Shown here one piece after another: positions 1-47,000 of a DNA stretch of 50,716 nt. The notes beneath the pieces are model-generated. The model made no database searches and was not told the origin of the DNA. It saw nothing but the letters and a program-made list of their open reading frames with translations. This stretch comes from an uncultured bacterium. GTDB lineage: Bacteria > Myxococcota_A > UBA9042 > PHBI01. A program made the translations under genes and the position numbers. The stretch spans positions 1 through 50,716 of the forward strand of contig CALHXW010000108.1 in assembly GCA_938040325.1 (NCBI GenBank), written 5' to 3'. Positions within the stretch are counted from its first letter, which is position 1. Every line of letters starts with the position of its first letter.

Positions 1-167
1 GCTCGTGGACAACGTGAGGTTTGCGAACGTTATCCAGTCGGCGGTGTGGAGGTGGGTGAGGCCGGCGCGGTCTTAGAAGGCCGCAACGTGTTCGCCTCAC
101 CCAGCTGTGCACGGACGACGTCAGCGGCGGCACGTTCAAAATGGCTAAAGTCGAGGCTAGCAGCGTT
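1..167 (+). repeat. Dispersed repeat, left copy (copy L)
   Basis: Bases 1-167 match the reverse complement of 43636-43802 with two mismatches (positions 66 and 68), so the two are inverted copies 43.6 kb apart. The left edge may be cut by the window. The copy ends with CTAGCAGCGTT (157-167), and the complementary AACGCTGCTAG lies at 264-274, overlapping the pnp stop codon. A 19-nt string at 256-274 also recurs at 43628-43646. The remaining bases 168-255 show only a short dyad (CGTTC-N5-GAACG, 210-224) and no gene. The function is unknown. Confidence 0.85.
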
Positions 168-23194: not shown

Positions 23195-24925
23195 ATGGAA
23201 GAGCGCGTCAACCATCTATTGCCGAACGTCGCACGCTGGCCGAACGATCCAGCGCAGCCTGTGATCGCTCTCAAGGACGTGGTGAAGGGCTTCGACGGGG
23301 TTCGGATCCTCGACAAGCTCAGCCTCAACATTGAGACCGGATTAACCACCGTCATCGCTGGCGAGTCTGGCACGGGCAAGTCCGTTCTGCTCAAGATGAT
23401 GAACGGACTGATGGTTCCCGACGAGGGTCAGGTGCTGCTCTTTGGCGAGGACACGCGAGAAGTGAAGCCCGACCGGCTGCTCTGGCTGCGCAAGCGCGTG
23501 ACGATGATGTTTCAGAACTATGCGCTGATGGACTCGATGCCGGTGCGCGAGAACATCGCGTTTCCGCTCTACGAGAACACGCGCATGCGCTGGCGCGACA
23601 TCATCCCGTTGGTCGACGAGCTGTTGAACGTGCTCGACTTGCCCGACGCGGGCGACAAGCTTCCGAGCGAGCTCTCAGGCGGCATGAAGAAGCGCGTCAG
23701 CTTTGCGCGGGCCGTGATCACCAACCCCGAGGTCGTGCTCTTCGACGAGCCGACGACCGGGCTTGACCCCGTCATGATCGAGTTCGTCGACAAGATGATC
23801 ATCCACGCCCGTGAGCAGTTCGGCATCACGAGCGTCATTATCTCTCACGACATGACCTCGACCCTGAACCTCGCCGATCGGCTGGCGATCCTGGAAAACG
23901 GCAAGATAACGGCCTACGGAACGGTCGACCACGTACTGAAGTCGGGGCGTGACCTCGTGCGCGTGTTCTTTGAGGATGTCGGTCGCCTGGAGGGCAGCTC
24001 TGAACCGGTGGTCGCGGAGTCGCCGGCCTCGGCCGATACCCAGCCGGAGATACGCCTGAGCTCAACGACGTCTGTCGCGCCGGCTTTCGACCTGGAAGCC
24101 TCAGACGCTGGTCCATCACCGCTCTTTGACTGCGGCGATGACGACGTGATTGCTGCCCTCGACGGGGTACACCGCTGGTTTGGTCGCCACCACGTGCTCA
24201 AGGGCGTGGACCTGCGTATCCCGAAGGGCCGCATCTCGGTGCTCATCGGGGGCTCCGGCAGCGGCAAGTCGGTCACGATGAAGCACATCATCGGCCTGCT
24301 GCAGCCCGACCAGGGCAAGGTCCAGGCCTTTGGCCAAGACCTCTCAAAGCTCAACGGCGCCCAGCTTCTGGCGCTGCGCGAGCGCTACGGCATGGTGTTT
24401 CAGGGCGCCGCGTTACTCGACGCGCTGACCATTCGCGACAACATCTCATTTCCACTGCGAGAGCGCGGCGTCGGCCGCGTGGAGGTCCGGGAGCGGACCG
24501 ATGAGACCCTCGAGAAGCTGCGTCTAACGAGCATGGCCCACCGCATGCCGTCGGACGTGTCCAACGGTCAGCGAAAGCGCGTCGGACTTGCCCGCGCCAT
24601 CATCACAAGACCCGAGATGGTGATCTACGACGAGCCGACGACAGGCCAGGACCCAGTCTTGACGCGCTACCTCGACGACATGATCGTGGAAGCCGAGGAG
24701 CTCTTTGGCATCACGTCGCTTGTGGTCAGCCACGACATGCCGAGCGCGTTCCGAATCGGACACCAAGTGGCGATGTTGTACCGAGGGCGAATCCTCGCCG
24801 CCGAGTCGCCCGAGGGGCTCACCGAGTGCCGCGACCCGCGGGTTCGTCGGTTCATCTTCGCTGGCACCGACGAGGGCGAAGCCGCTGCTGCGGAGATGGA
24901 GCGGCTCGGCCTCAGCAGCTACTGA
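23195..24925 (+). CDS. Fused tandem ABC ATPase, Mla-type
   Basis: A 576-residue cytoplasmic protein with two complete MlaF-like ATPase domains in one chain. Domain 1 (about 24-265) has Walker A GESGTGKS, signature LSGGM, Walker B VVLFDEPTTGLDPV and SHDM. Domain 2 (about 325-560) has GGSGSGKS, an altered signature VSNGQ, Walker B MVIYDEPTTGQDPV and SHDM. The linker between them is acidic and low in complexity. MlaF-type ATPases normally homodimerise beneath an MlaE permease in phospholipid transport, so the fusion could supply both halves. No mlaE or mlaD gene is in the window. The ATG at 23195 is favoured; one at 23126 would add 23 residues. Confidence 0.88.
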   Translation: MEERVNHLLPNVARWPNDPAQPVIALKDVVKGFDGVRILDKLSLNIETGLTTVIAGESGTGKSVLLKMMNGLMVPDEGQVLLFGEDTREVKPDRLLWLRKRVTMMFQNYALMDSMPVRENIAFPLYENTRMRWRDIIPLVDELLNVLDLPDAGDKLPSELSGGMKKRVSFARAVITNPEVVLFDEPTTGLDPVMIEFVDKMIIHAREQFGITSVIISHDMTSTLNLADRLAILENGKITAYGTVDHVLKSGRDLVRVFFEDVGRLEGSSEPVVAESPASADTQPEIRLSSTTSVAPAFDLEASDAGPSPLFDCGDDDVIAALDGVHRWFGRHHVLKGVDLRIPKGRISVLIGGSGSGKSVTMKHIIGLLQPDQGKVQAFGQDLSKLNGAQLLALRERYGMVFQGAALLDALTIRDNISFPLRERGVGRVEVRERTDETLEKLRLTSMAHRMPSDVSNGQRKRVGLARAIITRPEMVIYDEPTTGQDPVLTRYLDDMIVEAEELFGITSLVVSHDMPSAFRIGHQVAMLYRGRILAAESPEGLTECRDPRVRRFIFAGTDEGEAAAAEMERLGLSSY

Positions 24926-41102: not shown

Positions 41103-43486
<2,384 letters not shown>

Positions 43487-43569
43487 CGCGTGTCGCTAGA
43501 GCACCGAACGGGTGGGTAGCGTGCGGATCGGCGCGGTTTTGGGCCGTCGCTGAAGTGATCTCGAGATCA

Positions 43570-43598
43570 ACAGGAGCTGCGCCCCTGGACCCGCGTTG
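43570..43598 (-). repeat. Dispersed 29-mer, second copy
   Basis: Its reverse complement matches 36691-36719 at 28 of 29 positions. It abuts the 14-bp palindrome at 43556-43569, and weaker similarity between the two sites continues through that palindrome. Confidence 0.75.
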
Positions 43599-43607
43599 AG
43601 CGCATCA

Positions 43608-43625
43608 CGAAGTCATCAGACTTCG
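43608..43625 (+). terminator. Hairpin downstream of pyrG
   Basis: A perfect 7-bp stem (CGAAGTC with GACTTCG) closes an ATCA loop and is followed by CATTTCC, a weak T-run. It lies 122 nt after the pyrG stop and is the best hairpin candidate for ending that operon, but it could equally belong to the repeat locus. Confidence 0.35.
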
Positions 43626-43635
43626 CATTTCCCCG

Positions 43636-43802
43636 AACGCTGCTAGCCTCGACTTTAGCCATTTTGAACGTGCCGCCGCTGACGTCGTCCGTGCACAGCT
43701 GGGTGAGGCGAACACGTTGCGGCCTTCTAAGACCACTCCGGCCTCACCCACCTCCACACCGCCGACTGGATAACGTTCGCAAACCTCACGTTGTCCACGA
43801 GC
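43636..43802 (-). repeat. Dispersed repeat, copy A (inverted relative to the window start)
   Basis: The reverse complement agrees with bases 1-167 at 165 of 167 positions. Similarity then drops, though a further 20-25 nt past the end are still related. Such identity over non-coding DNA means recent duplication, gene conversion or strong selection. Confidence 0.88.
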
Positions 43803-44115
43803 GGCTTGGACAACGTTCGCAAGACTCACGTTGCCCACACGAGCCACGACGACTGCTGCAGATCACCTGATGATTCCCGGGGATCATCGTCGCCGCCGCC
43901 GCGGCTTGTGGGGATGTGGGAGCCGTGTCGGACTCCGTCCGTACCGACTTCCAAGGGCTTGTGGACAACCTCGTGCTGTCAGCGATCCTTGAGTCATCCG
44001 CTCGGTTGTCCAAGCCGGCGGTGTGCAGGTTGGTGAGGCCGCGAGAGGCGAATTGGCAGCAACATCTTCGTCTCACCAAGCTGTGCACGGACGGCGCCAG
44101 CCCGGCATGTCCACA
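43764..44115. other. Cluster of seven DnaA-box-like 9-mers
   Basis: Seven sites match TTGTCCACA / TTATCCACA at 7-9 of 9 positions. They are TTATCCAGT (minus, 43764-43772), TTGTCCACG (plus, 43791-43799), TTGTCCAAG (minus, about 43805-43813), TTGCCCACA (plus, about 43830-43838), TTGTCCACA exact (minus, 43960-43968), TTGTCCAAG (plus, 44006-44014) and ATGTCCACA (plus, 44107-44115). A T-rich patch follows at 44121-44140. No dnaA, dnaN or gyrB gene is near, so an origin is only one option; a DnaA-titration site or a chance feature of the repeats is also possible. Confidence 0.45.
43803..43844 (-). repeat. Partial tandem copy of the first 42 nt of the dispersed repeat
   Basis: In reverse complement it reads GCTCGTG, then CAACGTGAG, then TTGCGAACGTT, then TCCA, the same order as the start of copies L and A, with about ten differences. 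It directly abuts copy A, so the two form a head-to-tail partial duplication. Confidence 0.65.
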
Positions 44116-44190
44116 GACGCTTGATTTTGTGCGTTTTTCGCTTGGCGGCCTCGGATTATCAAAACGGCTAAAGTCGCCGCTAAAGCACCC
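44004..44190 (+). repeat. Diverged copy B of the dispersed repeat
   Basis: In the same orientation as the window-start copy. CGGCGGTGTG, AGGTTGGTGAGGCCG, GCTGTGCACGGACG and, after an insertion of about 50 nt, AAAACGGCTAAAGTCG match in order. By eye it is roughly three-quarters identical over the first 90 nt. With copy A it makes an inverted pair around a 200-nt centre. Confidence 0.7.
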
Positions 44191-44546: not shown

Positions 44547-46775
<2,229 letters not shown>

Positions 46776-46794
46776 CCCCCAAGCGGGTCGCAAC

Positions 46795-46840
46795 CGACAA
46801 AGGGCATGCCTTCTCGTTGAAGGCATGCCCTTTGTCGTTT
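46795..46840 (+). terminator. Perfect 19-bp hairpin after katG
   Basis: Bases 46795-46813 pair perfectly with 46819-46837 around a TCGTT loop. It begins 19 nt after the katG stop. Only three T follow, so it is either a bidirectional terminator with a weak tail or a 3' mRNA-stabilising hairpin. Confidence 0.7.
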
Positions 46841-47000
46841 GAGCTGCGTGTATCGGCGGCGGCCAGTGGGTGGGGCCAGGTGCCCCTGTCCATCGCCAGA
46901 GTGGGGCGACATCTCCCCGCCGGGGCTCGTGATTTCAGCCACTTAGAGCGGCATGGCGCGTGCTTGAGACAGAGGTCCACCTTTTCGTTGGAGGACCCTA

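Follow-up and report, generated by a model that had tools for sequence, protein, structure and literature searches.

The window, that is, the whole 50,716-nucleotide stretch analyzed here, corresponds to contig C108 in full, within a draft genome of 439 contigs (7.8 Mb, 90% complete). From reading the translations, we assigned the names pnp, pyrG and katG to three of its open reading frames: a pnp-like ORF on the minus strand (271-2400), a pyrG-like ORF on the plus strand (41837-43486) and a katG-like ORF starting at 44583. The initial annotation had singled out bases 1-167, beyond the pnp-like ORF, and the reverse complement of 43636-43802, beyond the pyrG-like ORF, as a near-identical non-coding pair. 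Direct comparison gives 165 identical positions out of 167, with mismatches at window positions 66 and 68, and neither stretch contains coding sequence. We consider it highly probable (about 0.85) that each of these stretches is the left end of a different member of a multi-copy mobile element located at CTAG, hereafter family A. This figure covers the identity of the element, the enzyme that moves it being treated separately below.

The first copy is cut by the contig start. Its left end occupies positions 1 to 159 on the minus strand (reference positions 1-158 map to 159-1), with a terminal inverted repeat at 138-159 and CTAG at 157-160. This CTAG is common to A and to an unstranded copy of a second repeat, family B (CTAGCAGCGTTG...GAACGCTGCTAG; 156-274), whose far CTAG lies at 271-274. 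The TAG of the latter is also the stop codon of pnp, so the B insertion leaves the end of the reading frame intact. About 10 bp past the pyrG stop lies an end of a third repeat, family C (CTAGAGCACCGAAC...; 43496-43550, plus strand, inner limit approximate), followed by a family B fragment on the minus strand (43550-43646) ending at the CTAG at 43643-43646, where the second A copy begins. This copy, located ahead of the katG-like ORF, is complete (43644-44182, plus strand, 539 bp), longer than the stretch matched in the pair, and an internal-deletion, MITE-like derivative. Its terminal repeats are 24 nt each, the left one, TAGCCTCGACTTTAGCCATTTTGA, at 43644-43667 (plus strand) and the right one at 44159-44182 (minus strand), which is 88% complementary to the left and is closed by CTAA at 44180-44183. 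Between them lie sub-terminal inverted arms of about 79% identity (43671-43774 and 44005-44107, an unstranded span of 43671-44107) and two 32-nt direct repeats, TGGAYAACGTTCGCAA..CTCACGTTGYCCAC (43767-43838, plus strand).

Since the contig starts at base 1 of the window, the repeat located there is interrupted by an assembly break. This break partly determines the length of 167 bp, which does not correspond to a unit. Similarity between the two stretches continues more weakly to about base 191 because both A copies abut family B.

Copy number and structure of family A

BLASTN of bases 1-167 against their own genome returned at least 43 matches, at least 32 of them with 90% identity or more over 135 bp or more, while the adjoining segment 43803-44003 had at least 38; these counts are lower bounds, part of the first-look candidates having been scored. 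The concern of the initial annotation that the pair might be an assembly artefact, or have no further copy in the genome, is thereby removed. Chance or artefact as its source is ruled out by copy number and by the sharpness of the ends: alignment of the flanks places a sharp A end at TAGCCTCGACTTTAGCC, preceded by C, and the inverse sequence closes the other side. A search with the terminal-repeat pattern allowing up to 3 mismatches detected 51 ends, whereas the reversed pattern, used as a control, gave none. At least 52 A ends are present in the genome, and all 52 that were sorted bound A sequence only: 27 are left ends, 24 are right ends, and one more is the right end of the complete window copy. 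One end, L137, had been classed as left because of a loose match, yet its interior is HNH sequence, which makes it a right end.

Copies in C230, C261, C331 and other contigs are longer than the window version. We assembled a composite reference of 1868 bp (left 127 bp from C230, middle from C331, consensus right end) in which the start codon of an HNH gene lies at position 718, and about 60 mapped pieces are all collinear with this single composite. The unit of family A thus comprises terminal inverted repeats of about 22 bp, a conserved fold-back left region of about 505 bp and one 396-codon HNH ORF. About 48 of 61 mapped pieces reach a contig end, so the element accounts for part of the fragmentation of this genome. 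In such a fragmented draft (439 contigs), copy structures are partial, and the contigs may derive from more than one strain. None of them contains an HNH-bearing copy that is both complete and undamaged, and an autonomous element may conceivably have been left out of the assembly. Two loci, L141 (C403) and L055 (C290), contain much older, diverged relatives with 73-82% DNA identity to A, which suggests that the family has been present in this lineage for a long time.

The HNH gene and the short derivatives of family A

The HNH gene is the only gene recognized inside any A copy. Contig C331 carries it as an uninterrupted ORF of 396 codons (396 aa), ahead of which a TATACT box and a purine-rich stretch are visible by eye; in other copies, the reading frame stops earlier, soon after the HNH motif. 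The product matches the Pfam HNH model PF01844 (25.4 bits for a cut-off of 21.4), and is therefore a predicted HNH endonuclease. Across 12 sampled HNH copies, mean dN is 0.056 and mean dS 0.181, corresponding to a dN/dS of about 0.31 (individual ratios mostly 0.2-0.5), and their covered parts contain no in-frame stop, showing that the gene was under purifying selection during the spread of the element. The AlphaFold2 model of the protein was unusable (pLDDT of 39), and neither a PDB sequence search nor PADLOC returned anything. Searches for the gene gave one weak, HNH-only match in phages, no match in plasmids and one distant Oligoflexaceae HNH gene in a GTDB scan. A small inverted-repeat element, E (ends TTGTAGATGCCGGAAGTTCGTTCC), is located at CTAG inside the HNH gene (L061, approximately 806-1000, also C293/C423), in two places at the same site of the gene.

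The majority of complete A copies are MITE-like, with the middle deleted. The copy at 43644-44182 lacks reference positions of about 505-1833, including the whole HNH gene, with the junction at 44148-44149. Other deletions remove reference positions 301-1728 (C417 and C128), 620-1708 (C261), 594-1465 (C197), 499-1379 (C329) and 564-1820 (C102), the short copies measuring for instance about 444 bp (C417), 539 bp (C108) and 778 bp (C261). At several junctions the adjoining segments share 1-8 bp, consistent with microhomology. The junction 300/1729 is common to C417 and C128, which suggests that a short form, once generated, went on to multiply.

These observations are compatible with a model in which full-length HNH-bearing copies would be the parental form, and deletions, probably occurring in transposition or repair, would generate short non-coding derivatives such as 43644-44182. 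Retention of the two ends and of the structured left region would then have allowed these derivatives to be mobilized in trans. Joining would most likely be performed by an enzyme that recognizes the ends of A and cuts CTAG. The HNH nuclease would most probably be a function that the element has kept for itself, whether within the mobilizing machinery or as a helper that would cut empty sites and favor spread or retention.

Family A is real, mobile and MITE-like, and its HNH-only parent is the unusual part. It resembles MITEs such as ERIC and Correia-type elements in being short, non-coding, dispersed and multi-copy, with terminal inverted repeats, a TA-containing target and an origin by internal deletion. 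It differs from them by its long one-sided fold-back, its CTAG preference and a parental form with an HNH nuclease gene instead of a transposase: the ends of A are common to an HNH-bearing element, not to a transposase-encoding one. MITEs of bacteria can usually be traced back to a transposase, and none of the papers covered by our literature search dealt with HNH elements in connection with MITEs. The suggestion of the initial annotation that the pair marks a mobile non-coding element was sound: the element in the window is MITE-like and belongs to a dispersed family whose members end in terminal inverted repeats. Its remark that no transposase is linked extends from the window to every copy found, with the addition that long copies encode an HNH nuclease. 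Dozens of A copies, many of them MITE-like, thus trace to an element whose sole recognized gene encodes an HNH nuclease, which raises a testable question: is an HNH nuclease able to mobilize DNA, or is a nuclease-bearing element the passenger of a resident transposase?

Known HNH-bearing elements resemble A in part. In IS200/IS605-type elements with IscB/IshB, an HNH protein is likewise the accessory nuclease of a small element, possibly with a structured non-coding region. The match of the A protein to the IscB model is confined to the HNH segment (23 bits for a cut-off of 175), and an identity as IscB/IshB (OMEGA nuclease) was rejected on this ground. Terminal inverted repeats and a CTAG border are also unlike IS200/IS605. 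The REP13E12/HNH endonuclease/DUF222 repetitive elements of mycobacteria, mentioned in PMC10589994, are likewise multi-copy and carry an HNH nuclease gene and no transposase, a likeness of gene content. The A protein differs from them in having no DUF222 match, a Pfam scan up to an E value of 1 returning HNH models only.

Target site and candidate mobilizing enzymes

The border 4-mer is CTAG at 39 of the 52 A ends and one change away from it at the remaining ones, TA being present at almost all. The left and right borders of the two-ended copies are CTAG/CTAA (C108), GTAG/CTAG (C230), CTAG/CTAA (C261), CTAG/CCAG (C417) and CTAG/CTAG (C197), so that the 4-mers are identical in one copy out of five and differ by one base in the other four. 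A duplication of TA with a preference for CTAG fits slightly better than a 4-bp duplication, two models that cannot be told apart at a palindromic CTAG; the differing border bases may be those of a worn CTAG duplication, which would look like a TA duplication in these five copies.

Most A ends adjoin family B (23/52) or family C (13/52), both of which are CTAG-bounded. CTAG occurs 39 times in the window for 79 expected, a rarity such that the ends of other repeats may represent a notable share of the available targets. Family B consists of palindromic, CTAG-bounded repeats of 117-200 bp and is commoner than A, a genome-wide search allowing up to 3 mismatches giving 123 ends. Family C, present from 43496 onward, is also found at L175, L185 and L187 and often abuts A or B. 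Since no clean empty site for A was found in the genome, transposition is deduced from structure. An apparent empty site in C133 relative to C230 was discarded, the two having only 93 bp of flank in common within a repeat mosaic.

Two explanations of how A moves have to be weighed. The first, to which we give roughly even odds, is that A is moved in trans by a DDE transposase with a CTAG preference, for instance an IS1380-like enzyme, with the HNH protein as cargo or helper. Two IS1380-type elements, L193 (C379) and L194 (C439), have CTAG on both borders, and their transposase genes (Pfam DDE_Tnp_1_4) are enclosed by CTAG repeats whose ends, TCCTAAAACAAGCGC, are perfect or nearly so, which suggests that a CTAG-targeting transposase is present in this genome. 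A short repeat with similar ends (TCCCAAATCAAGCGC) adjoins both. Families B, C and E are likewise located at CTAG without recognized coding content, and the short A copies need movement in trans anyway. However, IS1380 elements carry their own DDE transposase, and their ends TCCTAAAACAAGCGC are unrelated to those of A (CCTCGACTTTAGCC) and also unlike those of B, C and E; A was on this basis rejected as a non-autonomous IS1380 member. None of the 52 A ends bounds a transposase within A, and among the types searched only the two IS1380-type genes were detected, an IS630-type helper being rejected because the genome has no DDE_3 match. The HNH protein could be cargo, but a gene carried purely as a passenger should decay over time, which contrasts with its dN/dS.

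The second explanation, which we regard as possible but rather unlikely, is that the HNH protein itself mobilizes A by nicking or cutting CTAG and the element ends, repair or joining then copying the element. It accords with the absence of any other recognized gene from A copies, with purifying selection on the HNH gene and with relatives of the gene that adjoin inverted repeats in another genome, G022. Against it, the IS1380-type elements of the same genome use a CTAG target without HNH, and HNH nucleases are, to our knowledge, not known to perform transposition with terminal inverted repeats and target site duplication.

The search in relatives proposed by the initial annotation found no element A DNA in 51 other genomes of the class. 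Three weak DNA matches (88%, 87% and 90% over 30-38 bp) were noted, of which L155 and L157 were dismissed as A copies, both being in what look like ordinary coding regions. HNH-protein relatives were identified in G025, G022 and G001. In G022, which belongs to another family of the class, an inverted-repeat family (30 matches, outer limits not clean) includes at least 11 loci at which HNH-gene sequence adjoins the inverted repeats or is enclosed by them, one example being a 545-bp HNH remnant between inverted repeats on contig C65. These loci are suggestive support, not proof, for a recurring association of HNH genes with inverted repeats. In G025 and G001, terminal repeats are absent from the copies, which counts against mobilization by the HNH protein. 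It is unlikely, in our estimation, that A represents a class of transposase-less mobile elements whose insertion at CTAG and production of MITEs would be driven by an HNH nuclease, possibly acting jointly with the conserved fold-back left region (in the form of DNA or of RNA), G022 providing a second independent example.

The fold-back region and the inverted pair

The left region of about 505 bp folds back almost end to end (MFE of −267 kcal/mol, z of −11.3 relative to shuffles). Its divergence is 0.030-0.048, compared to 0.18-0.33 at HNH synonymous sites of the same copies, a difference that either constraint or homogenization by recombination or assembly would produce. Such a fold, such conservation and the position of both window copies downstream of genes could be taken to indicate a functional intergenic structured RNA, such as an attenuator or a terminator, duplicated by selection and not mobile. 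In the fold and covariation test recommended in the initial annotation, the region was much better folded than shuffled sequence, but the covariation part was uninformative because the copies are about 96% alike: both sides changed in only 1 of 38 variable pairs. Polymorphic columns are similarly frequent at paired (47/364) and unpaired (24/143) positions, and the left region has no Rfam match. An immobile RNA is in addition difficult to reconcile with sharp ends bearing terminal inverted repeats and CTAG borders, with the deletion series and with the attached HNH gene. The HNH-bearing copies and terminal repeats already disfavor this reading, which we consider very improbable.

The mobile-element interpretation also accounts for the arrangement of the pair: copies number in the dozens and occur in either orientation, so that two inverted ones on the same contig are to be expected, and it is incidental that the two window copies face opposite ways. 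The initial annotation is in this respect supported in part, its mobile element being retained and its inversion of the whole interval finding no support. That the pair, near-identical and inverted as it is, serves as an inversion switch for the 43.6-kb interval is scarcely credible given the dozens of further copies elsewhere in the genome, the lack of a recombinase linked to the copies and the lack of an element-bearing relative among the genomes compared.

Two other repeats of the window deserve mention. A direct repeat of about 112 bp with 76% identity is located at 23690-23800 and 24575-24685, and a strong imperfect palindrome, probably a terminator, lies just past the katG-like ORF at 46791-46841.
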